64,000 bases of DNA from the NCBI RefSeq assembly GCF_031583575.1, contig NZ_CP134146.1, positions 3,100,001 to 3,164,000 of the forward strand, in the 5' to 3' direction. The stretch's first letter is position 1, and each line of letters begins with the position of its first letter. The position numbers and the translations under genes are program-made. The DNA comes from Thalassotalea nanhaiensis. GTDB lineage: Bacteria > Pseudomonadota > Gammaproteobacteria > Enterobacterales > Alteromonadaceae. The notes under the pieces are model-generated. The model saw nothing but the letters and a program-made list of their open reading frames with translations. It was not told the origin of the DNA and did no database searches. Below are positions 33,145 to 50,882 of the stretch, piece after piece.

Positions 33145-33243
33145 ATGGCATTGCCAGACAAATTTATCTATTCGATGAACCGCGTTTCAAAAGTTGTTCC
33201 GCCTAAGCGTACGCGTTTAGTAATCGAAATATACTATAGATAA
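33145..33243 (+). pseudogene. ettA: stub of the original ettA 5' end, severed by element 1
   Basis: The first 23 codons read as the host EttA N-terminus (M-A-L-P-D-K-F-I-Y-S-M-N-R-V-S-K-V-V-P-P-K-R), preceded by AAGG nine bases upstream. The canonical V-V-P-P-K-R of EttA is present here but absent in the full-length copy at 49203. After codon 22-23 the sequence departs from ettA and reaches TAA at 33241. This is the left-hand remnant left when element 1 inserted; the original promoter still sits upstream. Confidence 0.9.
33190..33232. other. attL of element 1 (serine recombinase site in ettA)
   Basis: The host ettA sequence runs up to CGTAC (33208-33212), after which element DNA begins (GCGTTTAGTAATCG). 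The same CGTAC occurs at 49269-49273 where ettA resumes. The central dinucleotide is inferred to be AC at 33211-33212 from the symmetry of the reconstructed attP. Confidence 0.8.
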
Positions 33244-33250
33244 ATTGAAT

Positions 33251-33280
33251 AAAAAAGCCCTAATTAAAGGGCTTTAAAAA
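33251..33280 (-). terminator. terminator of the R-M operon at the left end of element 1
   Basis: AAAGCCCT (33254-33261) and AGGGCTTT (33268-33275) pair; read on the minus strand the stem runs into TTTTTT. It would stop transcription from the methyltransferase gene leaving the element. Confidence 0.75.
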
Positions 33281-33382
33281 ATTAGAATGTAGGTATCTTA
33301 AATCTGATCAACCATTATTGGAGCAGGTAATAGGTAATACTACCCTCAATTTTATAGTTCCAATAGAAAACCTTGTTATGCG

Positions 33383-34450
33383 TTACTTCTCTCGAATATT
33401 GGCCTTTGGTAACTTTAAAATTGCCTCGCCAGCACCTTTATATAGGGGGTGTCCCAAAAGGTTCTCTGTTTCACAGTGAGTTGGTTGTGGATATTGAAAG
33501 TAGTGTAAATTCTTTGCGGCAACGAAAAATAGTCTGCGCCTTTTTTGAGGGACACCATAGTCTGCCGCCATCAACTCCCTATGTGTCACATCGTACCCTA
33601 TATCTTGAAACGACTTATATATTTCCTCAATCATATTAGCGCTCTTAACTTGCGCCAAGCCATAGACGTTCTCCATAACGACAATTTCTGGCTTCAAAGC
33701 ATCAACATGTCTTATGTAATCTCTATATAGGACACCAAGAGGATCTTTAGTAGCCTTCTGTTTTCCTGCTACACTAAACGGCTGGCAAGGAGGTCCTCCA
33801 ATTACAATGTCAGGATTTTGGCCTAGCACTTCTTTTACTATAGAAGGTTCAAGTTGAGTAATATCTTCTCTGTGAAAATTCCATTCTGGTCGATTGTGAC
33901 TAACGGTAGCTTCAGCCCATTTTTCAATGTCGGTCGAAAAGCGTGTTTCAAACTGAATTAGTTTGTCAGACGCCTGTTCAAAGCCTAAATCTAGCCCACC
34001 TGCTCCAGTAAAATAAGATGCAACCTTCAACTCACCGCCCTTGTTAAGTCGTTCGAAATATTTAGCCACCTCTCTAGCTAATTCTTTTGCAAGTCCCACA
34101 GGTACCGCATTACCTATTTGTTTTTGGACTTGGCCTAAAGTTCCTTTGAACTCATAATCAAGTGGAAAGTCCTGTAAAACAGCGGCCTCTCTTGGAGTTA
34201 TATATCTATCTTCTTTAGGGTGTACAAACTTGTTAAAAATGTATGCTGTCACAGTTAGAGAAGGTTTACCTTTTTCCAACCTCAACAAACGCATATTCGG
34301 ACCACCTGTTTTTTTATCCCCCTTACGAATAAAGCTTTCATGTTGAAGGTGCTCTGGTAAATCCCCCATTTTACCTCCGGGAGGGAGGTGTTTCATTCTC
34401 TCAAGGACTATACCTGTATACTCTCTAGTCTCATGGTTTGGTATTTTCAT
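33383..34450 (-). CDS. circularly permuted DNA (cytosine-5) methyltransferase
   Basis: 355 aa. All conserved C5-methyltransferase motifs are present but rotated: motif IX (R-Y-I-T-P-R-E-A-A-V-L-Q at 82-93) and motif X (Q-I-G-N-A-V-P at 111-117) come first. They are followed by motif I (F-T-G-A-G-G-L-D-L-G-F at 147-157), motif IV with catalytic Cys222 (G-G-P-P-C-Q-P-F-S), motif VI (E-N-V-Y-G at 260-264) and motif VIII (Q-K-R-R-R-L-F-F at 302-309). The C-terminal E-A-I-L-K-L-P normally precedes the target-recognition domain, so the new ends lie just before that domain. Permuted C5 enzymes such as M.BssHII are known but uncommon. Its start overlaps the endonuclease stop (ATGA), so it protects host DNA against that partner. 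Confidence 0.92.
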   Translation of the reverse strand: MKIPNHETREYTGIVLERMKHLPPGGKMGDLPEHLQHESFIRKGDKKTGGPNMRLLRLEKGKPSLTVTAYIFNKFVHPKEDRYITPREAAVLQDFPLDYEFKGTLGQVQKQIGNAVPVGLAKELAREVAKYFERLNKGGELKVASYFTGAGGLDLGFEQASDKLIQFETRFSTDIEKWAEATVSHNRPEWNFHREDITQLEPSIVKEVLGQNPDIVIGGPPCQPFSVAGKQKATKDPLGVLYRDYIRHVDALKPEIVVMENVYGLAQVKSANMIEEIYKSFQDIGYDVTHRELMAADYGVPQKRRRLFFVAAKNLHYFQYPQPTHCETENLLGHPLYKGAGEAILKLPKANIREK

Positions 34451-35580
34451 AGATTAATATCGCGTAAAATAGGTTCTTCAAGTGTGATTATAAAGTCGAA
34501 TGCCCTGCGGAGCCTATTAGAAAGTATGCCTTTTTGACCATTTAGCTCACTTATATCTTCATCAAGCCCCCAAAGCATATCGACAAATGGGTCTACATAT
34601 TCCTGCCCGTGACGATAAGCTGGGAGGTTGGATATTATAGCCGTTTTTATGCTAGGTTCATCTTTTAAATTAGTGCCTATTTTCAAAGACTGATATATCC
34701 CTTTTTTGATGTCATCGGTGCGATCCATTCCAGCGCTAGTCTTGCTATCACTAATAGATTCTTTTTTAGGCCATCCATCTCGATCTTTTGCAATTTTAGG
34801 AGGACTTCCACTAGCGTTTGCAAGGTAGTACATTTTGTTTTGTCGGTCTTTTTTAGAATAAGCATCTCTGGCAGATAACCACTCGTTGATGCATTTTTGA
34901 ATTATCGGCATATTAACTTCTTCAATAAGGAAGTCTACTAATGGCTTGAATGGCCATAAGTCATCACCGACTTTTCCAAGATTAACGGGACCTATACTGT
35001 GAAGAAAAATAGCGGAATCGCACGCTCTAAGTTGTGAATTTGTTATAATTAATTTTTCATGCTCTCCTTTTAAACAACTATTAGGCGCTTTAAATAGAAA
35101 AGGGTAAGTTAGCAATGGAGCTGATTTTACTTCTGCTAGTATAACCATTCCATTTTTATGCTTTAGTACAGCGTCGGCAGCTTCTGTTCCACCGACAGCA
35201 ATAACTTCATTTAGCTGTGGATAAAGTTTTTCAATGAACCTTAATATTACTTCACTACTAAGTTTACCTAATGCTCCTGATTGAGGTTTTACCGCTTTTT
35301 GATAAGACCATGTTTCGTTGTTGGTATAACAAGGTGAGCAAAGATTTATAAACCCTAAGTGGGCATTATACTTATCTTCTATATTGTCACATTGTTCAAT
35401 TGATTTTTCTATCCCTGCTGTAGCATCTATATAAGCAGACGACATAACCAAATCAAAACAAAATGCTTGTATATGGGAATCTTTATCTACAAGCCAACTG
35501 AGTAGACGATCTACTTCAGTTCTCCACGGGTAATCAACCAGCGGTTCTCTGCCAGCAATATTGTTAATTTCGAATGTCAT
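34447..35580 (-). CDS. probable type II restriction endonuclease, PD-(D/E)XK
   Basis: 377 aa. I do not recognise the specific family, but the central segment has the nuclease pattern D136...E150-V-K152 (A-D-A-V-L then I-L-A-E-V-K), the PD-(D/E)XK catalytic signature. A C-P-C pair (C81, C84) could be structural. It is the first gene of a two-gene operon whose second gene, with a four-base overlap, is a C5 methyltransferase. This arrangement, endonuclease upstream and methylase downstream, makes restriction the most probable role. The recognition sequence cannot be predicted. Confidence 0.75.
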   Translation of the reverse strand: MTFEINNIAGREPLVDYPWRTEVDRLLSWLVDKDSHIQAFCFDLVMSSAYIDATAGIEKSIEQCDNIEDKYNAHLGFINLCSPCYTNNETWSYQKAVKPQSGALGKLSSEVILRFIEKLYPQLNEVIAVGGTEAADAVLKHKNGMVILAEVKSAPLLTYPFLFKAPNSCLKGEHEKLIITNSQLRACDSAIFLHSIGPVNLGKVGDDLWPFKPLVDFLIEEVNMPIIQKCINEWLSARDAYSKKDRQNKMYYLANASGSPPKIAKDRDGWPKKESISDSKTSAGMDRTDDIKKGIYQSLKIGTNLKDEPSIKTAIISNLPAYRHGQEYVDPFVDMLWGLDEDISELNGQKGILSNRLRRAFDFIITLEEPILRDINL

Positions 35581-36030
35581 TTATTTCTCGATGTATAAAA
35601 TTGATTTGTCGAACAGCTATTTAAAATGAAAAATGTGCGAAAGGAGGGGTGTCCCACCTTAAACAAAGTTTATTTTATCAATTAAAAACCTAAGTGAATT
35701 ACTATAGTCAGCTCAAAATAGAAGCTAATATTTTTTCATACCCATTACTTTAATGACTATCCAAAAAATGTAAACCCTCACTAGAAAAAACAATTCTTAT
35801 CATGGTTTTATTCAAAATAAATTTAAGTAAGTAAAAAGTTAATAACATCAGCGTTTTGTATCAATATTACAGTTCTCACGCCCTAATAGAGAGGAAGGGG
35901 TTTTAGATAAATCGAATTAGAAGTAATACAAGCTAATTTCGACTTAAAAAGTTTCTATTTACCTAAATCGATACAAATCCCAATCCAAAGCACTTTTAAA
36001 CCAATTCCACATCCAAAATAGGACTAAAAC
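35581..36030. promoter_or_regulatory. 450-bp intergenic region upstream of the first small operon
   Basis: Non-coding DNA between the leftward R-M operon and the rightward small genes. The notable content is the 27-bp sequence at 35870-35896 that recurs at 37144-37170. The distance from it to the next start is about 135 bases here and 30 bases at the second copy. Confidence 0.5.
35870..35896 (+). repeat. 27-bp leader repeat, copy 1
   Basis: Matches the sequence at 37144-37170 with one mismatch; core CGCCCTAATAGAGAGGAA. It lies upstream of the 36031-36595 gene pair. Confidence 0.9.
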
Positions 36031-36234
36031 ATGGCAAAAGGTAATAACCGAGTAAAGCTAGGTATCAGTAGAAATCTGATCGCTAAAATTTCTGCTCGTT
36101 TCCCTGAAGTAACAGCAACACAGGCTCTAGAATTTTTCATTCTATCGCATTTAGACAGAAATCCAGATAAGAGTGCCCCTGTGCACCAAGGAATAAACAA
36201 TGAGCAAAGACAAACTACAAAATATAAGGGTTAG
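36031..36234 (+). CDS. small basic protein, possible ribbon-helix-helix regulator
   Basis: 67 aa; AGGA seven bases upstream of ATG. The N-terminal half (V-K-L-G-I-S-R-N-L-I-A-K-I) followed by helical segments (T-A-T-Q-A-L-E-F-F-I-L) is compatible with a ribbon-helix-helix fold, a beta strand plus two helices; the C-terminal 18 residues are polar. No family identified. It overlaps the next gene by 35 bases, suggesting coupling. It could be the regulator acting at the 27-bp repeats, but there is no direct evidence. Confidence 0.55.
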   Translation: MAKGNNRVKLGISRNLIAKISARFPEVTATQALEFFILSHLDRNPDKSAPVHQGINNEQRQTTKYKG

Positions 36235-36595
36235 ATATAACCTTACAAACTACACACAAATTGACATGCAATATCTAGAAGTTGGTTCAAGGTCGTATAT
36301 AGAATTTAATGGCTATTCATCGGCTGTAATCAAAAACCCGAAGAGACGACCAGATCTTCGCTCTAAATTAAAGTCTGAACCATTAAGACAATACATCAGA
36401 TTAAGAAGTGATGTATGGTTTAGAAATATTGAATTAAAAGATATTGCCATCAACCAATTTAAAAACTCAAGAAGAAACGCTGATCCACCGATTAAAAATA
36501 GTTGGTGCGTTACATTCATTGATAAGTTAACAAGGAGCAGGTATATCTTTGCCTATATTAATGGTAAAAAATATATTGATATTCACAAATCCTAA
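36200..36595 (+). CDS. unknown 131-aa protein of element 1
   Basis: AAGGA lies seven bases upstream of the ATG. No recognised domain and no signal or membrane segment. Its C-terminal W-C-V-T-F-I-D...Y-I-F-A-Y-I-N-G-K-K-Y-I-D-I resembles the end of the 37200 gene product (Y-F-L-V-I-N...L-I-F-T-Y-I-N-S-E-L-H-F-Y), so the two may be distant paralogues with a beta-rich C-terminus. Both follow a copy of the 27-bp repeat. Confidence 0.6.
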   Translation: MSKDKLQNIRVRYNLTNYTQIDMQYLEVGSRSYIEFNGYSSAVIKNPKRRPDLRSKLKSEPLRQYIRLRSDVWFRNIELKDIAINQFKNSRRNADPPIKNSWCVTFIDKLTRSRYIFAYINGKKYIDIHKS

Positions 36596-36696
36596 GCGGG
36601 GGTTTATAGCGAGGGTTTCGATGCTTAACAATAAATCCTAAGCGGGGTGTTCGCTCTATAACCCACGACTTATAGAGGGATAGCGTCTAAGCGGGG
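36587..36696 (+). repeat. three iteron-like direct repeats CTAAGCGGGG
   Basis: AAATCCTAAGCGGGG occurs at 36587-36601 and 36633-36647, and the shorter CTAAGCGGGG at 36687-36696, with spacing of 46 and about 50 bases. The first copy overlaps the stop codon of the preceding gene. Related TTATAG(C/A)GAGGG sequences lie between them. Spaced repeats like these can bind a replication or regulatory protein. Confidence 0.75.
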
Positions 36697-37143
36697 GGTT
36701 CCCAATATATAGTCCCCGATTATCCCCCTTAATTAATAATTCTAACTAACATCTTTCAGAGTTAAATCTAAAAATAAACCACGGAGCGAAGCGACCCGAA
36801 CGGCAGAGCCGTGAGGAGCTAAACGAACGATAAGATTCTTAAGCTCTCGACCTTCGGTCTCGGTTCCGCGACTTCGTCGCTACACGTATTATTTAGAGGT
36901 TTTTTAATACTGAATATTAGGTAATAACTTAGCTTGTAAATGTTCAGCTTATGCGAGCGCAGCGAGGCAGGATTATGGATGGCTTACCGAGAAAGATCTT
37001 AGCTAATACCTTAAAACACCTATAAATCCTATTATCTCCTTCGATATTAAACGATCTTAATTATCCAGTACGAATACCAACGATATAGTTTTCCGTCCGA
37101 ATTTAGGCTTTAAAAGCGGTTAAATACTTACTAATTTAGTTTT
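36697..37143. other. non-coding region with many short palindromes
   Basis: Contains GAGCGAAGCGAC, CGGCAGAGCCG, GACCTTCGGTC, GACTTCGTCGC and GCGAGCGCAGCGAGG-type sequences, several of which are perfect or near-perfect small hairpins. No open frame is supported. It separates the two small operons of element 1 and may include a replication or packaging signal; this is a suggestion only. Confidence 0.5.
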
Positions 37144-37170
37144 CAGTTATCACGCCCTAATAGAGAGGAA
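37144..37170 (+). repeat. 27-bp leader repeat, copy 2
   Basis: Same sequence as 35870-35896 with one change, 30 bases upstream of the 37200 start. Confidence 0.9.
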
Positions 37171-37199
37171 AGAACTAACTTTAAAGGAACATTAATAAA

Positions 37200-37601
37200 A
37201 TGAATGATTTATCAATGTCTTTTAAATCAGCACTATATTTTGATGCTTTAATCAGATCTGAAATAAATGCTAATTTTCAAGACGTTAAATACCCCGAAAG
37301 CTTTAAAATTGAAGAGCTTTCAAATACCGAAGTATTAATCCATATAGATGGTCAAAGTCTTATAGGCAATTTATCGCTTCCGATCAAGACTGATCAAAAC
37401 GGCAGGAAATTGTTAAGTGGCATACTTCGTCATTTTAGAACTTTAGGTTTAACGCCAGCCGTGCAGGGGAAATTTAATAACTATCCTAAATCTTACTTTT
37501 TAGTCATTAACCGCACAGGTAACGATGGTAAGCAAAATAAGTTAATTTTCACTTACATTAATTCTGAGCTTCATTTTTATAAGGAGGTAATAAATGCCTG
37601 A
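37200..37601 (+). CDS. unknown 133-aa protein, possible paralogue of the 36200 product
   Basis: AAAGGA lies about 11 bases before the ATG. No recognised domain. The C-terminal I-F-T-Y-I-N-S-E-L-H-F-Y matches in pattern the I-F-A-Y-I-N-G-K-K-Y-I end of the 36200 product, and both genes sit behind the 27-bp repeat. It overlaps the next start by eight bases, so the four genes 37200-38203 form one operon. Confidence 0.6.
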   Translation: MNDLSMSFKSALYFDALIRSEINANFQDVKYPESFKIEELSNTEVLIHIDGQSLIGNLSLPIKTDQNGRKLLSGILRHFRTLGLTPAVQGKFNNYPKSYFLVINRTGNDGKQNKLIFTYINSELHFYKEVINA

Positions 37602-37947
37602 TAAAGTAATTAACCGCAAACATAGCCCCGAAACTAAAGCCAAAATATCTGCTTCAATGACAGGCAAAAATAACCCTCGCTTTGGAGCTAAATTAACCGA
37701 CAACCATAAAAAGGCTTTAACTAAAGGGCGAATTAAAGCTCAAGCCGAAGGTAAGATGGGTAGACCTATCGTTAATCCTAAAATTACGGTAAACGGTTAT
37801 TCATTTCAGCTAACCAACAATGTTAAAACCGCTACTTTTAATGGCATAAAAGCGATCCTCGCTCATTCAAAATTAAACCCTAATGGTTACTTTAATAATG
37901 AATGGTTTGCTAGGAGAAATATCACCATAAAATTTTTAAACAAGTAA
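37594..37947 (+). CDS. NUMOD3-motif DNA-binding protein
   Basis: 117 aa with an AAGGAGG ribosome site six bases upstream. The segment H-S-P-E-T-K-A-K-I-S-A-S-M-T-G-K-N-N-P is a NUMOD3 motif, a DNA-binding module normally found beside GIY-YIG or HNH domains in homing endonucleases. Here no nuclease domain follows; the C-terminal part (G-Y-S-F-Q-L...F-N-G-I-K-A-I) looks like another helical, NUMOD1-like DNA-binding portion. A free-standing DNA-binding protein, perhaps a regulator or partner of a separate nuclease. Confidence 0.75.
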   Translation: MPDKVINRKHSPETKAKISASMTGKNNPRFGAKLTDNHKKALTKGRIKAQAEGKMGRPIVNPKITVNGYSFQLTNNVKTATFNGIKAILAHSKLNPNGYFNNEWFARRNITIKFLNK

Positions 37948-37956
37948 GGACTACAT

Positions 37957-38046
37957 ATGTCGAAACAATCCAACTACCGACGACAATTTTTCTTATTAAA
38001 ACGTAAGGCTGAAAAGGAACAACCTAATGAATCAATCAACCCGTGA
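37957..38046 (+). CDS. 29-aa basic mini-protein
   Basis: AAGGA six bases upstream of ATG and tight packing between two NUMOD3 genes support translation. Highly basic (M-S-K-Q-S-N-Y-R-R-Q-F-F-L-L-K-R-K). It overlaps the next gene by 20 bases and may also serve to couple its translation. No family. Confidence 0.5.
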   Translation: MSKQSNYRRQFFLLKRKAEKEQPNESINP

Positions 38047-38203
38047 AAAATTAAGCCTAGCCCTTAAAGGGCGTAAACTAAGTAAATCCCATGTTCGTAA
38101 TATGCGTAAAGCTTTAACTGGGCGAAAAATGACTGACGAAACTAAAGCTAAAATGTCTGAGTCTGCCAAACAACGCCATGCTAGAGAAAAACTAATCGCT
38201 TAA
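38027..38203 (+). CDS. 58-aa protein made of two NUMOD3-like repeats
   Basis: AAGGA eight bases upstream of ATG. Two copies of the NUMOD3 pattern fill the protein: R-E-K-L-S-L-A-L-K-G-R-K and D-E-T-K-A-K-M-S-E-S-A-K, with M-R-K-A-L-T-G-R-K between. A minimal basic DNA-binding peptide without nuclease. It ends convergently on the HNH gene, sharing four bases. Confidence 0.65.
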   Translation: MNQSTREKLSLALKGRKLSKSHVRNMRKALTGRKMTDETKAKMSESAKQRHAREKLIA

Positions 38204-38910
38204 ATAAAAATATTATTCCGGTGATATTCTAAATATGGCTTATGCTCTTCTTTAATAAATCTAAGACTTAATTTATCGGTTATCTGCAACGCTTCAATTT
38301 CTTGAATAGATAATAACTTCGATATTTTAATCAAACCGTTATTATTAAAAGTAATTAACCCTCGGTCGAATAGCCGATCTAAATTAGGCGCTAATAATAA
38401 ACCATTATATTTGTCGACCTTTTCAGTATTCGAAGAAACGCTCCAAGGCTTAATATGTGAAGCATTTAATAATTCTGTTCTCTTAAGAGCAGTAACAGAA
38501 CAAGAGCCCCATAATTCGATTAAAGCATCCCTATATTTACCTTGACCTAATCGCGTTTCAATTTCGCGTACTTTAGTCACATCTAGGGGCGTAGCTATTA
38601 TTTGTTCAATATCAGTTATTGAATCATTAACCCCAGTATAAGAACTAGCAAACTTAATATATTTATTAATTGCTGACTTAAAACTAGATATGTCATTGAG
38701 TAATTGGTATTTATCTCTTTTTTCTCGGTTAGCCTTCAATTCTTCAAGCTTAACCTCTGCAATATTTTTATCTAACGAAAAATCTATTAGCAGCCCTTGG
38801 GAAGAAACATACCTTAGCCAAGATATATAGTTATTCTTCGACTGATTGGAGTTAGGTCCTTGCTCACGCATAAATTGCCAGAATTCAGTTTCTTTATAAA
38901 TTACGTCCAT
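38200..38910 (-). CDS. HNH endonuclease (HNH_2 type)
   Basis: 236 aa. The C-terminal half has the HNH_2 pattern: C-S-V-T at 137-140, S-H-I-K-P-W at 151-156 and N-G-L-L-L-A-P-N-L-D-R-L-F-D-R-G at 169-184, which together give the His-Asn-His metal-binding finger. The N-terminal half is helical without a named domain. Such HNH_2 proteins occur as restriction-type enzymes and as phage or plasmid nucleases. It faces the NUMOD3 genes, so the NUMOD3 proteins and this nuclease could be separated halves of a homing-type activity; that is a guess. Confidence 0.8.
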   Translation of the reverse strand: MDVIYKETEFWQFMREQGPNSNQSKNNYISWLRYVSSQGLLIDFSLDKNIAEVKLEELKANREKRDKYQLLNDISSFKSAINKYIKFASSYTGVNDSITDIEQIIATPLDVTKVREIETRLGQGKYRDALIELWGSCSVTALKRTELLNASHIKPWSVSSNTEKVDKYNGLLLAPNLDRLFDRGLITFNNNGLIKISKLLSIQEIEALQITDKLSLRFIKEEHKPYLEYHRNNIFI

Positions 38911-39332
38911 TTACTACCTAATACGGTTGTCGTTATGTCATTCAGTTTATCGCTAAGATAATACTTGAGGCTTTGTTGATAGGTTAGCAAACAAAATGAT
39001 AAAGGTCATAAGTTATTGTCTTTCTGAGGTAGTCTGCTGCTACCCCTTATGGCTATGGTGTCTATTGAGTTTTATAAAATGTAATAAAGCCCTTCAATAT
39101 ACAGGGGGGCTGTCATAAAAAACCAGGCATTAACTGGCCTAACCCGCGCTTACTTAATTTTACACGTATTTTAACCAGCTAACGTCACTAATCACATTAC
39201 GATTAAAAGCCATAAAAACCGCTAATTCTTCGCCATATAACGGCAAAAACCACTGAGTTAGTAGGCTTGTATCACAAAGCAATAAATCTAACCGTTTTAC
39301 CCACTAAATTTCACCCTATTAAAGGATTAACT
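38911..39332. other. intergenic region upstream of the HNH and 39333 genes
   Basis: 422 bases. Contains the hairpin-like AGCCC...GGGGGGCT (about 39087-39111) and CCAGGCATTAACTGGCC. It should hold two divergent promoters. An in-frame ATG at 39267 exists, but the later start with a good ribosome site is preferred. No gene seen. Confidence 0.4.
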
Positions 39333-39878
39333 ATGACAAAAGCTCTATACCTTCGCTGTGAAGAAGGCGAAATAAAATTAAACCCTGATCTCACTTACAA
39401 TGTATTTGACCAAAATATGACAGCCAAGCAATTAGCTAAACTAAATATAAATCATTTACCTTGGCTAGACCAAACGACTGCACTGCAAGAAATTGAAAAC
39501 TTCCAAAAACTCTCGATACTTTACCACCCTGATATTGTTAGCTCTTTAATTACCGAAGAAGAAAACTCTATTTATTGGGGGAAAAGAGAGCATGAAGCAC
39601 TCATTATCTTTAGGCGTGAAACCGTTAATAAAAGTGAAGATGATTTGTCTGAGTCTCAGCGCAAACGATTAATCGCTTCGCCTTACGATATAACCGCGAA
39701 TAAGGCGAGAGTTAAGAAGCACTCTATCATTAAGCAATTAGTTAGCCTTGGTTACCACAAAGATTCAGCGCAAAGTCTTTTTGATGATTTTATGGATAAG
39801 AACGGCATTGGTCACATGAACCTAAAAGCAGGCGATATTGTGACTTTGATTGATGAATTTACCCTAGAGAAAAACTAA
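39333..39878 (+). CDS. unknown 181-aa protein upstream of the capsid gene
   Basis: The start is chosen at 39333 (AAGGA six bases upstream); an ATG 22 codons earlier lacks a ribosome site. Soluble, acidic, mixed alpha/beta, without recognised motif. Its position before the capsid gene makes a head-related role (scaffold, protease or minor head protein) conceivable, but no catalytic Ser/His pattern of a prohead protease is evident. Separated from the capsid gene by 335 bases. Confidence 0.55.
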   Translation: MTKALYLRCEEGEIKLNPDLTYNVFDQNMTAKQLAKLNINHLPWLDQTTALQEIENFQKLSILYHPDIVSSLITEEENSIYWGKREHEALIIFRRETVNKSEDDLSESQRKRLIASPYDITANKARVKKHSIIKQLVSLGYHKDSAQSLFDDFMDKNGIGHMNLKAGDIVTLIDEFTLEKN

Positions 39879-40213
39879 CGTACTCCTAAAGCCTATTTGA
39901 AGTTTAAGTAGGTTTTGTGGGTATTGGTTCCCCCTTCCTACGATAGAAAAGCCTGAGCATGCGTATTCACTGCTTACCCCCTAAAAATCCCCTTAAAACT
40001 TAAATTATTAACTAAGCATTTTTCAACAATTTGATATTTTCGGATGCATAGCTACTTTGCGGAGGTTTAAGTTTTGGTGGGGGTTTCTAACTGTCAGACA
40101 GGCAGTAATGCGATCTAATAGCTATTAGTTCACTTCGTGTAAGTCGCGCCTATGCGTGCAACTTATTTAAACGTAAACCCCAAACTCGCAAGTAAGCGAT
40201 AAAGGTAAAAAAT
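39879..40213. promoter_or_regulatory. 335-bp leader of the capsid gene with palindromes
   Basis: Non-coding. Holds CTGTC-A-GACAG and the perfect 14-bp palindrome CTAATAGCTATTAG at 40115-40128, which could be an operator. A weak stem pairs AAGCCTA with TAGGTTT near 39890-39915. The capsid start at 40214 is preceded by AAAGG. Confidence 0.5.
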
Positions 40214-41494
40214 ATGAAAATTAAAACCTATGCACAATACCAAGCTGCATTAGCAAAAATTAAAGCAATTATCGGCAATGAAATGGATCACACAACCATT
40301 AACCGCCTAAAAAGCCTTTCAATATCAGACGAACAGAAATTACGTCAAATTGGCTCGGCATTAAATGAAGTCTGCGATAGTGATATTGCAGAAATGAAAT
40401 CTGCTCATTTAGCACTTCGCCTTAAAGCGAAAACTATTAAGCCAACAAAATCTAAAAGCCAATTAAAGACTAAAAGTAAGAAGGTAAATGACGTGAAAAA
40501 ACAATTAAAAACCACAACTAAAGCAGAGCGTGATAATCATTTACGCGGTAAAGCCCTTTTATCTTCGGATGCTGCTGTAGCGATTGATAAGTCGCTTCAA
40601 TTAAAAGTTATTGAACGCGCTCGCGCGGTTGGTGGACTATTCGCAGATGTAAATATTGAAGTTGTTGATAGCCTAATTGTTAAAGCTAATCCTGTCGCCC
40701 TAACCGCAGCACAAGTTGCAGCTTATACAGAAAGTGACGGTTCAGTCGCATTTGTTCGCGGTCAAACAGGTTTAGGAACGATGGTTCAGCCTACGGTTTA
40801 TACGGGCAAAAATGAATTTAAAGATTACATTTCTAAAGAAGTCATTAACGATGTTCACGTAGACGTTGAAGGTTGGCTTTTAAATCAAATGTCACGTTCT
40901 TTTAATAATGAGTTTGCCATTCAATTTGTCGCTGGTGATGAAACAACGAATAAAGAGTTTATGGGAATATTCGGTAATCGCTTCCATACCACTAATTCAT
41001 TTGTTGCGGATAGCTCCCGCGATATTGAAACCCTTGGCGCTTTTGATAGTAAAGTTAATGGTTCATTAGGTGGCGCAGACCCAAGCGTTGCAGGTAATGC
41101 CGTTGACAATATACGTGATTTTATCGACACCCTACCGACTGAGCATAGAGATGGCGCTAAGTTGTATATGCATAAAAGCGTATTAAGCCATATTCGAAAA
41201 CTTAAAACTCTTGAAGGCGCTTCTTTAGTCGTTAACGGAAAAATTGACGATTTTGACGTTGTTCTTGATGACATGATGCCAGCCTATGACGAAGTTGCGG
41301 CAGTAGCCGAACCATTAATTCTTTTCGGTAAAGTAAACGAAGCTTTTGCTGTTAAGTCTCATGCCTCAGAGCTAGATATTAACCCGTATAAAATTGATGG
41401 TGCTGTTGCCTATGAAGAGGTTCAACGTATGTCCTCATTCATCAAAGACAATAACGCACTTCGAATATTCTTTGCAGGTACTAAAGCACCATAA
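40214..41494 (+). CDS. HK97-fold phage major capsid protein
   Basis: 426 aa. An N-terminal helical delta-like domain (1-70) and a Lys-rich linker (71-100) precede the capsid domain. The domain is recognised from the E-loop region V-Y-T-G-K-N-E-F-K-D-Y-I-S at 195-207, the spine helix with E-G-W-L-L-N-Q-M (219-226), F-V-A-G-D-E-T-T-N-K-E-F-M-G-I at 238-252 and L-Y-M-H-K-S-V-L-S-H-I-R-K-L-K at 317-331. F-D-V-V-L-D-D-M-M-P at 347-356 and I-L-F-G-K-V-N-E-A-F at 369-378 complete it. This is full length for the HK97 family and has no visible disruption. Remarkably, no terminase, portal, protease or tail gene is near. It is monocistronic, with its own leader and terminator, so it is probably expressed on its own. 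Confidence 0.9.
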   Translation: MKIKTYAQYQAALAKIKAIIGNEMDHTTINRLKSLSISDEQKLRQIGSALNEVCDSDIAEMKSAHLALRLKAKTIKPTKSKSQLKTKSKKVNDVKKQLKTTTKAERDNHLRGKALLSSDAAVAIDKSLQLKVIERARAVGGLFADVNIEVVDSLIVKANPVALTAAQVAAYTESDGSVAFVRGQTGLGTMVQPTVYTGKNEFKDYISKEVINDVHVDVEGWLLNQMSRSFNNEFAIQFVAGDETTNKEFMGIFGNRFHTTNSFVADSSRDIETLGAFDSKVNGSLGGADPSVAGNAVDNIRDFIDTLPTEHRDGAKLYMHKSVLSHIRKLKTLEGASLVVNGKIDDFDVVLDDMMPAYDEVAAVAEPLILFGKVNEAFAVKSHASELDINPYKIDGAVAYEEVQRMSSFIKDNNALRIFFAGTKAP

Positions 41495-42570: not shown

Positions 42571-42595
42571 ATCACTTACCAAAAGTGAGTAAATC

Positions 42596-42636
42596 AAAAA
42601 AGCCAATATAGTGTTAAACTATATTGGCTTTTTATT
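42596..42636. terminator. bidirectional intrinsic terminator
   Basis: AGCCAATATAGT (42601-42612) and ACTATATTGGCT (42618-42629) pair perfectly; A run on the left and T run on the right serve both convergent genes. Confidence 0.9.
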
Positions 42637-42648
42637 TCAACAATAACA

Positions 42649-43749: not shown

Positions 43750-44151
43750 GTGAAAATAACAGCAACAACAAAAGAAGAATTTTCTGTGCAATTTCGTAAT
43801 TATCTAAACCAAGATAAGAGCCGAAATTTATGTAATATCGTTTACAAGTGGAAAGTTGAAAACAATATTCCGCGGATGAAAGGTGAAAGTAATATCCTTT
43901 ATATTGGTCAAACTAAACGTAGCCTATATGACAGGTATTCAGATAAAAGATCTTTCAATATAGAATTAACCTATTTTGAGCAATTTTATAAATATGCGAT
44001 TCAAGAATACGGTAGCTTATTTATCGAAATTTTAGCTGTTGACGATGTAAAACTAGAGGAACATCGGGAGTTAGATCATTATCGCAGTATGCACTTTGAG
44101 TATCCGCCATTAAATAGAGCTATCCCTCGAATGCAAAAAAACAATAACTAA
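43750..44151 (+). CDS. GIY-YIG-like nuclease domain protein
   Basis: 133 aa from GTG 43750 with AAGG seven bases upstream. A degenerate GIY-YIG pattern is seen: V-Y-K-W-K at 31-35 stands for the GIY strand, I-L-Y-I-G-Q-T-K-R-S-L-Y-D-R-Y at 49-63 contains YIG and the conserved Arg62, and a C-terminal Glu (L-E-E-H-R-E-L, 102-108) could bind metal. It is short, single-domain and upstream of SIR2-HerA. Possibly a homing-type or anti-phage nuclease. The domain call is moderate because the first motif is divergent. Confidence 0.6.
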   Translation: MKITATTKEEFSVQFRNYLNQDKSRNLCNIVYKWKVENNIPRMKGESNILYIGQTKRSLYDRYSDKRSFNIELTYFEQFYKYAIQEYGSLFIEILAVDDVKLEEHRELDHYRSMHFEYPPLNRAIPRMQKNNN

Positions 44152-44301
44152 TACACCTGTAAATGTAACTGCCTGTTACTTATTAGTATTTCCATAACTT
44201 CTCGCTTTATGTATAGCTTTATAATATTATTTTTATAAATATAAAAATTAAACTAGCGACATTTTTCAAGCTGGTTATATCAGCTAAAATAAAGGGACTT
44301 C

Positions 44302-45363
44302 ATGGCTATACTTAAATTATTTGAAACAAACAACGAACATTTTCAAGAATATTTTTCTCGCATTTTTCAATCCTCAAATATTAACTTCTTATTTGGTGCC
44401 GGAGCATCAAATCCAGCGATTACAGTTGCTGGAGATATAGAAAACAAAATTCAAGAGTTATACGATGAAGGAAATGTTAGCGAAGCTGAGAAAGTTGAAT
44501 ACGACTTTTTAGCGAGTGTTCAAAAAATTTGTGCAAAATTAGTTCAAGGAGCGTCCTTTCCGGCTAATAGCCATGAGATTTTAGTACTATCAAACTACGA
44601 GCTATTTTTAGACATAATTCAAGACATGCTCCAGCAAAGAAGAAACAGCTTGCTCCCTAAGAAGGTAAATATTTTTACAACAAATTATGACTTATTTGTT
44701 GAACAAGCAGCACTTAAGTTTAAAGGGTTAGTATTGAATGATGGTTTTCAAATACGTTCGACTTTGAAAAATGAATATCAATATGAAACCAGAAGCTTTA
44801 GTCGTACATTTTTTGAAACTAGTGCTTTATATGATTATAAAGTTGAGTTACCCGTTGTTAATTTATTGAAGATACATGGTTCTATGACTTGGACAATGGA
44901 TGCTCCAAACTCAGAAATAATTAAGTATAAAGCTGAAACTAACTTCCTCCCCTCAATTGAAGAACTAACCGAGGAACAAATAAAGCAACACCTTGAAAAT
45001 TACTACTTAATTTATCCTAAAAAAGAAAAATTCAAAACAACATTGTTGAATCACACTTACTACGATTTAATGAGAATTTACTCGAATGAGTTAGATAAAG
45101 AGCAAACAGTTTTGATTGCATTTGGCTTTTCATTTCAAGACGAGCATCTATTTGACTTAACCAAAAGAGCATTAAGAAATTCAACCCTTAAAATAATTAT
45201 ATTTGCATTTAACAATAGTGCAAAAGAGTTACTTCTAGAAAAATTCTCAAACTTTAACAATGTAGACATTATCTACAGAAGCAATGATGAACAAATAAAA
45301 TTTGAACAATTTAATGATGCTATGCAATGTTTCAGAGGTTCAGGAGCAAAAAAATATGCATGA
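44302..45363 (+). CDS. SIR2-domain NADase of a SIR2-HerA defence system
   Basis: 353 aa. The SIR2-like NAD-binding pattern is clear: F-L-F-G-A-G-A-S at 29-36, T-T-N-Y-D at 126-130 and the catalytic-His segment L-L-K-I-H-G-S at 188-194 (His192). In the established SIR2-HerA anti-phage system, this protein assembles with a HerA ATPase and depletes NAD+ upon infection. The following gene overlaps by eight bases and encodes that ATPase, giving the canonical pair. Confidence 0.9.
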   Translation: MAILKLFETNNEHFQEYFSRIFQSSNINFLFGAGASNPAITVAGDIENKIQELYDEGNVSEAEKVEYDFLASVQKICAKLVQGASFPANSHEILVLSNYELFLDIIQDMLQQRRNSLLPKKVNIFTTNYDLFVEQAALKFKGLVLNDGFQIRSTLKNEYQYETRSFSRTFFETSALYDYKVELPVVNLLKIHGSMTWTMDAPNSEIIKYKAETNFLPSIEELTEEQIKQHLENYYLIYPKKEKFKTTLLNHTYYDLMRIYSNELDKEQTVLIAFGFSFQDEHLFDLTKRALRNSTLKIIIFAFNNSAKELLLEKFSNFNNVDIIYRSNDEQIKFEQFNDAMQCFRGSGAKKYA

Positions 45364-47392
45364 TAAAGAGTCAATACTAAAGGTCGGTGAAGTTTGTGAA
45401 GTTCAGGGCCGAATAATCATTATTAGAATCTACAAAAATAAGAACCTTTCGGACCTATTTTATGACGGAACCATTATTAAGAATGTTTCCGTAGGTAGCT
45501 TTATAGAAATTAAAAAAGGGTTCACTAGCCTAATAGGGAAAATTGAAGGAGAAAGGTTAACTGAAGACAAAATAACCCAATCGACTAACCAGCCTACCTC
45601 TACTTATCAACGATATTTAACTGTGAGTTTATCAGGCTATATAGATCGCTCTGCTAAGTTTATTGGTGGGACAACGGAATTGCCGCTAATAGGCAACGAA
45701 GCCTATATACTCACCCATGATAAAGTTTCTAAGATTCACAATATAGGCACTTCATGTAATGAACAGTCTATTAATATTGCTGAAACTCATGTAGATAAAA
45801 TGCCTGTTTCTTTGCCTGTTGATGGTTTATTAAATACCCATATAGCTATTTTTGGTAACACCGGAAGTGGTAAATCAAATACACTAACATCCTTTTATCA
45901 GTCTGCGTATAGCTGCTTAGAAAACCATTATGGTTCTAATATCTTTAATGAACGTTGTAAGTTTTTATTATTTGATTTTAATGGAGAATACACTTCAGCT
46001 CCTTGTATTACCCGAAATAAAAAAGTCTACAACTTAAACACTCGAAATAAAAATTCAGATAAGGTGCCATTGCCTGGTGAAGGTATTCTAGATATTGAAG
46101 TTATCTCCATAATATGCGAAGCAACTGAAAAGACACAAAAACCAATGCTAGAAAGAGCATTAAAAAAATATAAATTAACTCAAGAAAAGGGTTCACCAAT
46201 AGAGTATGTAAAAGCTATATTAAAAAATATTATTACTAAAACTTTATTGATGGCTGATAAACAAAAAACGGCAGTATTAATAGGATACTTTAGTTCAATT
46301 TTTAATAATGCGGATGATCTTCAAGACGACCTTGAGCTACGACAAGATTCTGTTAGGTATATAATTGGAACTGCCCACAATCAAGGATTTATAAATAACC
46401 CTGAAAGCCCATATATTCCACGCACAAATTTATTTAAGAAAGTAGATCTATTTTCTTTCGAAGACAATGACTTTAATAATTTTATTAAATTTGTCTATAT
46501 TCAATTAATTGACGACCTATTAAGCTCGCGTGTAGCAAATGAGCATGTAAAACCTGTACTTGGAAAACTAAAACAGAAAAAGTCATACATTGAGAAAGTA
46601 ATTAATTTCGATGGTGGTGATATCTGGGAAGGTACTAATTTTGTTGTTATTTCTTTAGATAAAGTAAATATAGACATTAAAAAATTACTTCCACTTCTAA
46701 TTGCTAAAACCATTTATGATGAAAAGAAAAATTCCCGCAATAACCAATCACTCAACATAATTATTGACGAAGCACACAACATATTATCTAACGAGTCGTT
46801 TAGAGAAACAGAGGCATGGAAAGATCATAGATTGGAAACATTTGAGGAGATAATTAAAGAAGGGCGTAAGTTTGGTACTTTTATGACAATTTCAAGTCAG
46901 AGGCCAAATGATATCTCTCACACAATTACTTCACAAGCGCATAATTATTTCATCCATAGACTAGTCAATGAACGTGACCTAAATTCAATTTCAAACGCTG
47001 TTTCTTACATTGATAAAATAACTGAAGAGTCTATACCTAATCTGCCAACTGGCGTTTGTATATTTAGTGGTATATCAACACAGATACCACTAAAGTTGAA
47101 AATACATGAATTAGATGCCTCAGAGCAACCTAACAGTAACACTTTTAAATTTTTTGATAAAAACTTTAATAGTTTAAACGCAAATACTTTGGCCGAATAC
47201 CTTGATTTAACTGAAGAAGAATTAGAATCTATGGATTTGACTCTTGAAGAGAATACAGGTCATTCAGGTGAAATGGTTTATAGTTTTTATTTTAATGTCC
47301 CTGAAGGCACTCCGACCTATATTCTTGAGAAAAAAGGTTGGCAAATAGGTCAGAGTGTTTGTGATATTCCTATTGAATTAGGTGTAGGCTAG
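45356..47392 (+). CDS. HerA-type hexameric ATPase of the SIR2-HerA system
   Basis: 678 aa from ATG 45356, chosen for GGAG nine bases upstream; an earlier in-frame ATG lies inside the SIR2 gene. An N-terminal beta-barrel (HAS-like) region is followed by Walker A G-N-T-G-S-G-K-S (167-174), the F-D-F-N-G-E-Y motif, Walker B I-I-I-D-E-A-H-N and the S-S-Q-R-P sensor segment. HerA is a FtsK/HerA-clade translocase; here it is the partner that assembles with the upstream SIR2 NADase. Confidence 0.9.
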   Translation: MHDKESILKVGEVCEVQGRIIIIRIYKNKNLSDLFYDGTIIKNVSVGSFIEIKKGFTSLIGKIEGERLTEDKITQSTNQPTSTYQRYLTVSLSGYIDRSAKFIGGTTELPLIGNEAYILTHDKVSKIHNIGTSCNEQSINIAETHVDKMPVSLPVDGLLNTHIAIFGNTGSGKSNTLTSFYQSAYSCLENHYGSNIFNERCKFLLFDFNGEYTSAPCITRNKKVYNLNTRNKNSDKVPLPGEGILDIEVISIICEATEKTQKPMLERALKKYKLTQEKGSPIEYVKAILKNIITKTLLMADKQKTAVLIGYFSSIFNNADDLQDDLELRQDSVRYIIGTAHNQGFINNPESPYIPRTNLFKKVDLFSFEDNDFNNFIKFVYIQLIDDLLSSRVANEHVKPVLGKLKQKKSYIEKVINFDGGDIWEGTNFVVISLDKVNIDIKKLLPLLIAKTIYDEKKNSRNNQSLNIIIDEAHNILSNESFRETEAWKDHRLETFEEIIKEGRKFGTFMTISSQRPNDISHTITSQAHNYFIHRLVNERDLNSISNAVSYIDKITEESIPNLPTGVCIFSGISTQIPLKLKIHELDASEQPNSNTFKFFDKNFNSLNANTLAEYLDLTEEELESMDLTLEENTGHSGEMVYSFYFNVPEGTPTYILEKKGWQIGQSVCDIPIELGVG

Positions 47393-47453
47393 CTCCACAG
47401 AATCGTCATAAAATCAGTTAAAAAATAATCCAGTTATAATATATAGCTGGAAT

Positions 47454-49184
47454 TTAACCTGAATTTTTTATAAAACCATCAATCGTTGCGGTATATGTCC
47501 AACGTTTTTCTTTAGTACTAAACCATACCGCACGACTTTCGCCAGTATTAAAAATAATATTATAAGTAAGTTTTTCTTTATCTTTAAAAGTCGGTTTTTG
47601 CATACCTTCAATATGCGTTGTTAATTCATCATCATCAAAATTTCTCTTGAAATCTTCCCACTGTTCGTCAGTTTTAATGCTGCTACCATACCGATAAACG
47701 TCGATGCGTTTAATAAATTTCGGTAACATCGACTTTAACTTTAACCTAGTATCAGTAGGGATTTCGCTATGCTTGACCTGATTTAGTAACTCTAAAAACT
47801 CGACTTCTTCGGTAGTTTCTAAATGCGTTGCAGCTTCAACTTCACTCTTAACTTTGACAAGATCTTGTTTTAATTTTGATATATTTTCTTCTATATTTTC
47901 CTTGCGTAAAACGAAGGTTTCTTTAGTTATAACGCCATCTAAAAGAAGGTCTAATAGTTTATCTAGCTTAGGCTGCAGTAAGTCAATTTCGGAGGTTAAA
48001 TCAGCCTGTTTTACCTGTAACGAGCCAACATCAATAACATTTCCTTTGAATATCAGATCGTAATTAACTTTATCCTTACAAAGCTCAATTAGTACTTGCT
48101 CTAAGAATCGCGCCCGCGAACTACCACCAAAACAAACCGACTCACCCTTGGCATGACCAGAACAACGAATAGATGCCGATTTATTTTTCTGCTGCTGAAC
48201 CACAAAACGCGACCCGCAATAACCACAAAATGTAATCCCCATATAAATTACAGGCGGATATTTACGCATCGAAGGCGTAGTAGTTCTTGTCTTACGAATT
48301 TCTAATGCTTGATAAAATACGCCTTTGGGAACCGTTATAGGGTAATAATCATCAACTTGGGACTCATTGTCCTTACCTACGTTAAAAACTCTACGCCCAA
48401 TAAGGCGGTAGTCCGTAAGAAGGCGCGTAACATACGATTCATTCCAAACACTTCTTATCTTTCTGGTATTTTTATGGGCAGCTACCCGTTTATGATGCTC
48501 CATCCAAACAGCTTCATTTTCGTTTAACCATCTAACGATGCTATTTGCTCCCTTCCCATCGTTATACATTTCAAAGATTTTACGAATAACTTCGCCACGT
48601 TTCGGGATCACTTCAAAACCGACGATTTTCGGTGGCGTATGTGATGTATCGTATACTTTAGAAATCCAATTAGGTAAATTGCCCACGGCTACAACTTCGC
48701 CATTAGCAACTCGCTTCTGGTAACTGGCGATAGTTCGTTCAGCCCTAGATCGAGATTCTTTGTTAGCTGCTTCGGCTTGCGCCTGTATTCCTACGAAACG
48801 CCCAAAATCAGAAACATCTTCCGGTGAAATCGTTTGTCCAGTAGTAGAAAAGTGTATCAATAACCCCGATAAAGCTATTTCTCGAATTTTAGTCGCGGCA
48901 TCAAAAAACTCTTCACGGCTAAAACGCGTCATATCGAACATTACAACGACACTTCCTTCTGGATATGCGCCATTGCGAGCCGAAGTTAAGATCTCCTGTA
49001 AATTTGCCCCTCGATAGGCGCTTACGCCAGCTTCTACAATATCATCTAACCTAACATAATCGTCTTTTTCCATAAGACGCTCTATTGCTTGGTTATTAAT
49101 ATGGCGTTGGTTATCCAACCCACTGCCGTTAGCAGCTTGTGAGCTATCACTTACTCGGATATAATTTACGATAATTTTATTCAT
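47454..49184 (-). CDS. large serine recombinase (integrase of element 1)
   Basis: 576 aa. The resolvase domain has catalytic Ser12 (Y-I-R-V-S-D-S-S-Q). The recombinase domain follows (G-K-G-A-N-S-I-V-R-W-L-N), then a zinc ribbon C-G-Y-C with a distal C-x-G-H...C near 318-355, and a C-terminal coiled coil (about 385-440) that controls directionality in this class. It lies at the right end, reading inward, 18 bases from the ettA start codon. It is the enzyme expected to join attP with the site in ettA. A directionality factor is not identified. Confidence 0.95.
   Translation of the reverse strand: MNKIIVNYIRVSDSSQAANGSGLDNQRHINNQAIERLMEKDDYVRLDDIVEAGVSAYRGANLQEILTSARNGAYPEGSVVVMFDMTRFSREEFFDAATKIREIALSGLLIHFSTTGQTISPEDVSDFGRFVGIQAQAEAANKESRSRAERTIASYQKRVANGEVVAVGNLPNWISKVYDTSHTPPKIVGFEVIPKRGEVIRKIFEMYNDGKGANSIVRWLNENEAVWMEHHKRVAAHKNTRKIRSVWNESYVTRLLTDYRLIGRRVFNVGKDNESQVDDYYPITVPKGVFYQALEIRKTRTTTPSMRKYPPVIYMGITFCGYCGSRFVVQQQKNKSASIRCSGHAKGESVCFGGSSRARFLEQVLIELCKDKVNYDLIFKGNVIDVGSLQVKQADLTSEIDLLQPKLDKLLDLLLDGVITKETFVLRKENIEENISKLKQDLVKVKSEVEAATHLETTEEVEFLELLNQVKHSEIPTDTRLKLKSMLPKFIKRIDVYRYGSSIKTDEQWEDFKRNFDDDELTTHIEGMQKPTFKDKEKLTYNIIFNTGESRAVWFSTKEKRWTYTATIDGFIKNSG
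49137..49165 (+). promoter_or_regulatory. outward sigma-70-type promoter inside the recombinase gene, driving ettA
   Basis: TTGTGA (49137-49142), a 17-base spacer, and a perfect TATAAT (49160-49165) on the plus strand, antisense to the recombinase start region. A transcript from near 49172 would have a leader of about 30 bases with AAGG eight bases before the ettA ATG. It replaces the host promoter left behind at 33.1 kb. Confidence 0.65.
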
Positions 49185-49202
49185 ATTCTTAAGGTTTCCC
49201 CA

Positions 49203-50882
49203 ATGGCATTGCCAGATAAATTTATCTATTCGATGAATAGAGTATCAAAAGTTATTTCAAGTACCAAACGTACAATTTTAAAAGACATCTCCTTATCATT
49301 TTTTCCCGGCGCTAAAATTGGTGTTTTAGGTTTAAATGGTTCAGGTAAATCAACGCTACTGCGTATTATGGCAGGTGTTGATAAAGAGTTTGAAGGTGAG
49401 GCGCACGCACTTGCCGGCACCAAAATTGGTTATTTAGAACAAGAGCCGCAACTTGATGAAGAAGCTACGGTTCGAGAATGTGTAGAGCAAGCAGTTAGTG
49501 AAGTTAAAAATGCCTTGGCGCGTTTAGATGCTGTCTATATGGAATATGCCGAAGAAGGCGCTGACTTTGATGCTCTTGCCAAAGAACAAGGTGAACTGGA
49601 AGCAATCATTGAAACCCAAGACGGCCATAATATTGATAACGTGTTAGAACGTGCTGCTGATGCACTGCGTTTACCTGAGTGGGATCAACCAATAAAAGTA
49701 TTATCTGGTGGTGAACGCCGCCGTGTAGCGTTATGTCGACTACTACTTGAAAAGCCAGACATGTTATTACTTGATGAACCAACTAACCACTTGGATGCAG
49801 AATCTGTGGCATGGCTTGAGCGTTTCTTACATGACTACTCAGGGACGGTTGTTGCCATTACCCATGATAGATACTTCTTGGACAATGTTGCCGGTTGGAT
49901 CCTAGAGTTAGACCGTGGTGAAGGTATTCCTTGGGAAGGCAATTACTCTTCATGGTTAGAGCAAAAAGATGCGCGTTTAGAACAAGAAAAACGTCAAGAA
50001 AATGCTTTAGCGAAAACCATTAAGCATGAGCTTGAGTGGGTTCGCTCCAATCCGAAAGGCCGCCAAGCGAAATCAAAAGCTCGCATGGCTCGTTTTGAAG
50101 AATTATCAAGTAATGAGAACCAAAAACGTAATGAAACTAACGAGCTTTATATTCCACCGGGGCCACGCCTGGGCGATAAAGTTATTGAGGTTGAAAACCT
50201 AACTAAGTCATATAACGACCGCGTACTAATTGATGATTTAAGTTTCTCAATGCCTAAAGGCGCAATAGTAGGTATTATCGGTCCAAACGGCGCAGGTAAG
50301 TCGACTTTATTTAAAATGTTATCGGGTGCAGAAGCGCCGGACTCAGGTTCAGTTACAGTTGGTGAAACCGTTAAACTTGCCTCTGTAGATCAGTTCCGTG
50401 ACGACATGGATGATGCAAGAACCGTTTATCAGGAAATTTCAGAAGATAATGAAATTATTCAAATTGGTACTTATGAAATCCCTGCACGTGCCTATGTAAG
50501 TCGTTTTAATTTTAAAGGTACAGACCAACAAAAAGTGATTGGTCAATTGTCAGGTGGTGAACGAAATCGTGTGCATTTAGCCAAACTTGTTAAAACAGGT
50601 GGTAACGTATTACTTCTGGATGAGCCAACCAATGACTTAGATATTGAGACATTACGTGCTCTTGAAGAAGCTATTTTAGAGTTCCCAGGTTGTGCGATGG
50701 TTATTTCCCATGACCGTTGGTTCTTAGACCGCATTGCCACGCACATCATTGATTACCGTGACGAAGGCGAAGTAAACTTTTTTGAAGGTAACTTTACCGA
50801 ATACGAAGAGTGGCTTAAGAAAACTTATGGTCCACAGGCAGCTGAACCACACCGCATTAAGTACAAACGTATTACTGCGTAG
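49203..50882 (+). CDS. ettA: EttA, ABC-F translational throttle, with element-derived 5' end
   Basis: 559 aa. Two ABC domains with Walker A G-L-N-G-S-G-K-S-T and G-P-N-G-A-G-K-S-T, signature motifs L-S-G-G-E-R and the EttA arm between them. EttA binds the ribosomal E site and gates the first elongation step by the ATP/ADP ratio. The first 24 codons come from element 1: host V-V-P-P-K-R is replaced by V-I-S-S-T-K-R, one residue longer, and the frame is kept. Promoter and ribosome site also come from the element. Downstream, a shared terminator with the convergent crotonase gene. Confidence 0.96.
   Translation: MALPDKFIYSMNRVSKVISSTKRTILKDISLSFFPGAKIGVLGLNGSGKSTLLRIMAGVDKEFEGEAHALAGTKIGYLEQEPQLDEEATVRECVEQAVSEVKNALARLDAVYMEYAEEGADFDALAKEQGELEAIIETQDGHNIDNVLERAADALRLPEWDQPIKVLSGGERRRVALCRLLLEKPDMLLLDEPTNHLDAESVAWLERFLHDYSGTVVAITHDRYFLDNVAGWILELDRGEGIPWEGNYSSWLEQKDARLEQEKRQENALAKTIKHELEWVRSNPKGRQAKSKARMARFEELSSNENQKRNETNELYIPPGPRLGDKVIEVENLTKSYNDRVLIDDLSFSMPKGAIVGIIGPNGAGKSTLFKMLSGAEAPDSGSVTVGETVKLASVDQFRDDMDDARTVYQEISEDNEIIQIGTYEIPARAYVSRFNFKGTDQQKVIGQLSGGERNRVHLAKLVKTGGNVLLLDEPTNDLDIETLRALEEAILEFPGCAMVISHDRWFLDRIATHIIDYRDEGEVNFFEGNFTEYEEWLKKTYGPQAAEPHRIKYKRITA
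49251..49292. other. attR of element 1
   Basis: Element arm (ATTTCAAGTACCAAA) meets ettA (AATTTTAAAAGAC) at CGTAC, 49269-49273. Combined with attL it defines the insertion. Confidence 0.8.

Follow-up and report, generated by a model that had tools for sequence, protein, structure and literature searches.

A 16-kb large serine recombinase element interrupts ettA of Thalassotalea nanhaiensis and carries a replacement for the 5′ end of the gene

The integrative and conjugative elements (ICEs) of the SXT/R391 family, large conjugative elements with a tyrosine integrase, rebuild the 5′ end of prfC, the gene into which they insert. The supply of a new promoter and N-terminus to a target gene is published for islands at dusA and cited for SXT at prfC (PMC8409611). 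Integrative and mobilizable elements (IMEs) with serine integrases are said to disrupt dispensable genes in a review (PMC5704250), and a survey of large serine integrases likewise speaks of disrupted target genes (PMC10083194). The locus considered here lies in a stretch of 64,000 nucleotides from Thalassotalea nanhaiensis (NZ_CP134146.1, positions 3,100,001 to 3,164,000; hereafter the window), in which ettA carries a 16,061-bp element in codon 24. Both junctions can be read from the sequence, and a gene for a large serine recombinase (LSR) lies at the right end of the element (Table 1).

The initial annotation of the window proposed that the first codons of ettA occur twice, as a short stub and at the head of the full gene, that an LSR gene adjoins the second copy, and that element DNA parts the host start from its gene while bringing a start codon, ribosome-binding site and N-terminal codons of its own. 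The duplicated start around an LSR element is confirmed as real, the codons brought by the element numbering 23 by the present analysis. The stub opens with the ATG at 33145, reads MALPDKFIYSMNRVSKVVPPKRT and continues as RLVIEIYYR to a stop codon at 33241-33243, giving 32 residues; several relatives that lack the island have the same first 23 residues in EttA. The stub and the rebuilt gene are alike from the ribosome-binding site through codon 17, with 46 of the first 51 coding nucleotides identical and the five differences, spread over four codons, all synonymous. After codon 17 the stub reads VVPPKRT and the rebuilt gene VISSTKRT, one codon more. The start codon and N-terminal codons supplied by the element are in frame with the body of the gene, and joining the two flanks in silico yields an uninterrupted EttA of 558 aa with the family reading VVPPKRTILKDIS / VVPPKRTILKDISLSFF. 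The LSR gene runs on the opposite strand, divergent from rebuilt ettA, with 18 bp between the two ATG codons.

The two junctions have the core CGTAC in common (33208-33212 and 49269-49273). The crossover is placed at the dinucleotide AC, present at both junctions, because the symmetry of the inferred attP centres there, and the length of the element follows from this placement. The attP is an inverted repeat matching at 15 of 19 positions. Of 20,000 shuffles, one is as symmetrical at the four core positions and 11 are so when any position is allowed; within the window itself, 2 of the 63,940 positions reach this level. The corresponding score of attB is 7/19. The left half of attP coincides with ettA codons 17-24 as carried on the element, and this half-site may be the source of the extra codon. 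A requirement for attP symmetry would account for both the altered residues and the additional codon of the rebuilt gene. An inverted repeat around a dinucleotide common to both junctions, a recombinase with resolvase, recombinase and zinc-ribbon domains, and an attB that is uninterrupted in relatives are together what is looked for in an LSR element, and each is present.

The empty site, anticipated by the initial annotation as a continuous ettA with a V-V-P-P-K-R type of reading, is indeed found in relatives, the nearest named ones by EttA being Thalassotalea and other Colwelliaceae. In one genome of the same genus (G495) a complete, uninterrupted ettA comes immediately after the sulfatase gene, which in the window is the left neighbour of the stub, and the sequence upstream of the stub is homologous to that upstream of G495 ettA. 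SPFH and TPR-kinase genes stand further to the left in G495 and are retained in G481. Across 128 distinct ettA starts from relatives the usual reading is V/I-V-P/A-P-K-R/K. An extra codon occurs in four of them, those of the window, Thalassotalea eurytherma, G315 and G072. T. eurytherma combines its extra-codon EttA with a divergent LSR start, the contig ending inside the LSR gene (a 40-residue fragment with 50% identity). Upstream of the G315 and G072 starts no LSR motif was seen, the upstream sequence covered for G315 being 0.8 kb. G072 (L043 / L268) has the EttA N-terminus MALPDKFIFSMSRVSKYISSSKKH, with the extra codon but a promoter of the native class; about 19 kb upstream of its ettA holds no stub and no gene of the window island. 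Its ettA could be the leftover of recombination between a stub and its copy.

The locus is best read as a site-specific integrative element whose own LSR recombined a circular attP with attB in ettA, the start of the gene being rebuilt by the element, and this reading is given a probability of roughly 0.88. The LSR would recognise an attB within roughly the first 30 ettA codons and cross over at the AC of codon 24. The right end of the element mimics the host gene, offering a ribosome-binding site, an ATG, codons 1-23 and, opposite the first codons of the LSR, a probable promoter. Rebuilt ettA would then be transcribed from element DNA, the native promoter reading only the 32-codon stub. The features of the sequence thus support the earlier view of the island as an ettA-rebuilding element, with this LSR as the probable agent and the element presumably able to excise. 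Several points weigh against it. Neither an excised circle nor recombination was observed, recombination itself being inferred, and no recombination-directionality factor was noticed, although no search was aimed at one. Peptide patterns returned no intact close relative of the LSR from GTDB contigs or IMG/VR, and the LSR relatives in 395 genomes of the family are all distant (best 30% identity). The symmetry of attP is significant in two of seven ettA inserts tested, those of the window and G394, the other five (described below) reaching 7-8/19. Finally, G495 EttA begins MAQPLPDKFIMSM where the stub has MALPDKFIYSM, an N-terminus of another type, so G495 is not the exact pre-insertion allele.

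Searched against the 4.31-Mb genome at E 0.001, the LSR matches only itself, and no solved structure matched it at the same threshold. Distant LSRs occur in 35 phage and 17 plasmid records, with at most 28% identity among the matches listed. Among the best 80 ettA loci from GTDB contigs, an LSR beside ettA is seen as an open start in T. eurytherma and as a remnant in L137. A second LSR of the genus, 30% identical and present in G332 (L061, L247-L249), is divergent to dinB, about 150 bp from the dinB start; it was considered as a parallel case and set aside, no second dinB start having been found in about 36 kb to its left.

Which promoter serves the rebuilt gene? The class of promoter left with the stub (TTTGCTT ... 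CTAAAATA) precedes uninterrupted ettA in many relatives, including G495, and was not returned for the stub by a consensus scan. For the rebuilt gene a scan, a weak test taken alone, gave five promoter-like matches in 500 bp, where shuffles average 1.3. The LSR-start remnants considered below have similar promoter boxes in the same place, and so does T. eurytherma, where a -10-like TACAAT lies opposite the codons for YCRVSTTEQST. The promoter nested in the LSR gene is, on these comparative grounds, the probable promoter of rebuilt ettA.

The same arrangement of stub and rebuilt ettA, at the same codons, occurs in six other genomes (G394, G493, G530, G593, L129 and G139). A 25-aa EttA start matched 296 of the 395 family genomes and not the other 99, with at least two copies in six: the window genome, G394, G493 (three copies), G530, G593 and G508. 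L129, a GTDB contig, is a further case. An order-level search with a 20-aa query matched 357 of 375 genomes, three with two copies; this query misses stubs, as it gives a single match in the window genome. G139, from another family, has a stub, an insert of 951 bp and a rebuilt ettA. A stub and a complete ettA with nothing between them would be at odds with the initial annotation, and in all six relatives with both copies on one contig an insert lies between; G508, G096 and G176, whose second copy is on another contig, are outside this count. In G508 (L288, G508:C62:6-74) the second start has a different promoter, stands at a contig edge and runs on into ettA, and represents either a tandem copy or mixed strains.

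These inserts are small: 880 (G394), 1073, 1934, 2877, 3330, 2553 and 951 (G139) bp, two of them in tandem in G493 (Colwellia). In G394 the cargo is a ParE-type toxin together with a small partner gene. Leucine-rich repeat (LRR) proteins occur in G493 and G593 (Pfam) and in G530 (by eye), and a TPR protein occurs in L129; the remaining cargo includes a 114-aa protein (G139) and a 229-aa lipoprotein-like protein (by eye; no family). Pfam found no integrase in six cargo proteins, the six that were scanned. The cargo follows the stub in the direction of ettA in five of seven inserts, with the opposite orientation in G394 and G139, and for this reason the displaced promoter might drive it. When eight left ends were compared over 24 positions (28 pairs, 4000 shuffles each), the pairs window-G139 (17/24) and G493b-G530 (20/24) were matched by none of the shuffles and G593-L129 (16/24) by two; three more pairs gave p < 0.02 and 22 did not. 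The likeness of G493b to G530 is possibly just inherited, since their cargo is also similar. Of the ties between the LSR element and a small insert, the window-G139 pair is the strongest.

Are the small inserts in fact related to the LSR element? They might instead be products of another recombinase, or of homologous recombination of ettA 5′ ends between strains. No relative of the window LSR was listed for G394, G493, G530 and G593 at E 1e-8 or found in G139 at E 0.001, the attP symmetry of the small inserts is mostly weak, and the L129 stub has CGTGC in place of CGTAC. Similar LRR genes are carried by three Colwellia inserts, in which the two copies of ettA hardly differ. Against a separate origin stand the identical codons, the identical rebuilt structure, the related left ends of some inserts, and G394, where an LSR-start remnant is found together with an ettA stub lying 880 bp upstream. 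A separate origin is judged rather unlikely, and mobilization of the small inserts in trans is the suggested alternative.

Remnants of LSR starts extend the pattern. In the 110 nt preceding each of the 128 ettA starts, the antisense strand was scored with a profile of the LSR start, with a cut of 7. Scores of at least 7 were obtained for 13 of the 128, compared with none of 2560 shuffles and, among 2586 real control windows, with three that score exactly 7; scores of at least 8 were obtained for 10 of the 128 and for no control window. The 13 comprise the window, T. eurytherma and 11 further genomes in which no LSR gene was recognised, the upstream sequence covered being 1.2-5 kb for seven of them. 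In five of these 11 the motif YCRVS, which bears the catalytic serine of the recombinase, is intact. The G394 remnant has a stop in the LSR frame, yet TTGACT and TACAAT remain. None of the 11 has the extra codon, which raised doubt about an origin by simple deletion of a window-type element; that difficulty is removed because inserts whose ettA copy has no extra codon exist (G394, G493). On an ettA tree (FastTree, 108 rows) the 13 rows require nine label changes against a shuffled mean of 12.5, with 1 of 500 shuffles as low, so the remnants are scattered but somewhat clustered. The sister genomes G554 and G449 have the same gene upstream of ettA, one with an LSR-start promoter and the other with the native class. 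A toxin-antitoxin-like pair, named by eye, lies 5′ of ettA in these two Thalassotalea genomes (L035, L092).

A second alternative is that the LSR-start motifs are host promoters that happen to resemble LSR codons, with no earlier elements involved. Promoters like TTGACTG...CTACAATA occur in several genomes with no LSR motif, and codons are constrained wherever the other strand has to serve as a good promoter. The number of matches is set by the score cut, which three control windows also reach, and the weakest matches may be chance or plain promoters. All 13 matches begin 13-19 nt before the ettA ATG; position alone says little, because 18 nt before the ATG is also the commonest best-scoring position among the other 115 starts (25/115). 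The scores of 8 and above confined to ettA starts, YCRVS intact where no LSR gene is recognised, the pairing of such a start with a stub in G394 and the scattering of the motif on the tree make this alternative improbable.

The remaining alternative is that the 5′ end of ettA was duplicated in tandem, or that the insertion was illegitimate and is flanked by a duplicated host segment, the LSR being there by chance. This would explain why the insert is flanked by two copies and why both copies in the Colwellia inserts bear the native promoter class. It is highly improbable for the window, and a duplication artefact is ruled out, as the copies match only around the ribosome-binding site, in codons 1-17 and in the CGTAC core, their promoters differ and so do codons 18-24, the inserted codon and the changes coincide with the inverted repeat centred on the junction, the left end resembles that of an insert from another family, and the site is uninterrupted in relatives.

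Taken together, the LSR element, the small inserts and the remnants allow a wider proposal, possible rather than probable, in which ettA of marine Gammaproteobacteria serves as a platform for serine-integrase cassettes. The same codon would be entered by autonomous LSR elements and by cassettes that lack an integrase, the newest beside the gene body, each giving ettA a fresh promoter and N-terminus, and the displaced promoter would drive the incoming cargo. In LSR elements the codons of the catalytic motif YCRVSxxEQST would double as an ettA promoter on the other strand, and decayed elements would leave that promoter to the host. A conserved translation-factor gene is here kept intact by an element carrying its own copy of the start. 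This suggests a route into a gene that is not readily lost, with an attP half-site that is also protein-coding and, perhaps, a promoter overprinted on the recombinase gene. Should the leftover LSR starts now be the ettA promoters of several genomes, mobile elements would have repeatedly rewired the expression of a ribosome-associated factor, and the small inserts raise the question of whether one LSR moves integrase-less cassettes in trans.

The rest of the element has the look of a defence-carrying island (Table 1). The SIR2-HerA-like pair (44302-47392) directly adjoins the LSR gene. A capsid-carrying phage satellite would be expected to have further morphogenesis or packaging genes; the scanned proteins of the island, several of which match no family, include the capsid but no recognised terminase, portal or other head protein. 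Conjugation genes were likewise not recognised among them.

Table 1. Features of the ettA locus and its element, in window coordinates
Feature	Position	Strand	Basis or remark
Native ettA promoter left with stub (TTGCTT, 18, TAAAAT)	33074..33103	+	named by eye
ettA stub: native codons 1-23, 9 further codons, stop	33145..33243	+	read from sequence
Left crossover dinucleotide AC (attL), inferred	33211..33212	+	centre of attP inverted repeat
Element left end, attP right half	33213..33240	+	17/24 like left end of G139 insert, 0/4000 shuffles
Intrinsic-terminator-like hairpin after methyltransferase gene	33254..33275	-	sequence scan
C5-cytosine DNA methyltransferase	33383..34450	-	PF00145, PADLOC MTase_II
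Type II restriction enzyme	34447..35580	-	PADLOC REase_II E 2.6e-35; no Pfam match
NUMOD3 protein, homing-endonuclease-like	37594..37947	+	library scans
HNH endonuclease	38200..38910	-	PF13391
HK97-type phage major capsid protein	40214..41494	+	PF05065, phrog_10, weak match to capsid Rcc01687
SIR2-like protein, probably of SIR2-HerA defence pair	44302..45363	+	PADLOC SIR2 E 1.1e-110
HerA-like ATPase, probably of SIR2-HerA defence pair	45302..47392	+	PADLOC HerA E 2.9e-194
Large serine recombinase, 576 aa	47454..49184	-	PF00239 Resolvase, PF07508 Recombinase, PF13408 zinc-ribbon
Probable element-supplied ettA promoter TTGTGA-17-TATAAT	49137..49165	+	antisense in LSR codons 7-16; 10/12 consensus matches
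Element-supplied ribosome-binding site TAAGG	49190..49194	+	named by eye
Rebuilt ettA, 559 aa	49203..50882	+	best solved match EttA 3j5s, E 1.8e-285
Element-supplied ettA codons 1-23; stretch end is attP left half	49203..49271	+	read from sequence
Right crossover dinucleotide AC (attR), inferred	49272..49273	+	centre of attP inverted repeat

How does this element compare with those already described? IMEVchUSA3, an example of the dusA islands, has an integrase of the tyrosine type. It also provides new 5′ coding sequence and a promoter, tested there with a lacZ fusion, and differs in its target gene and in being mobilised by IncC (PMC8409611). The likeness to SXT/R391 at prfC drawn by the initial annotation holds, the same rebuilding being published for dusA as well (PMC8409611). 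The ettA element differs from SXT/R391 in having an LSR, a site in ettA, a length of 16 kb and no recognised conjugation gene, and is not a member of that family. Among the papers listed by the literature searches, no report was seen of an ettA island, nor of a serine integrase rebuilding the 5′ end of a gene, in agreement with the annotation's remark that no description was known for EttA with a serine recombinase. Rebuilding of 5′ ends is thus already known. In those searches no counterpart turned up for the use of a serine integrase, for ettA as the site, for a promoter within the recombinase gene or for the small inserts. Integrons collect small gene cassettes at one anchored site; unlike them, the anchor here is a coding gene, and neither an integron integrase nor attC turned up, with no search aimed at either. 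The small inserts resemble the cis-mobilizable elements (CIMEs) and tandem accretions at att sites treated in a review (PMC5704250), in that they lie between att-like sites with no recognised integrase and are once in tandem, but unlike those CIMEs they measure 0.9-3.3 kb and each rebuilds the start of its target gene. With serine-integrase IMEs and related elements the ettA island shares an LSR, a site-specific attB inside a gene and a dinucleotide core (PMC5704250, PMC10083194). Unlike those elements, it rebuilds the gene that it enters.

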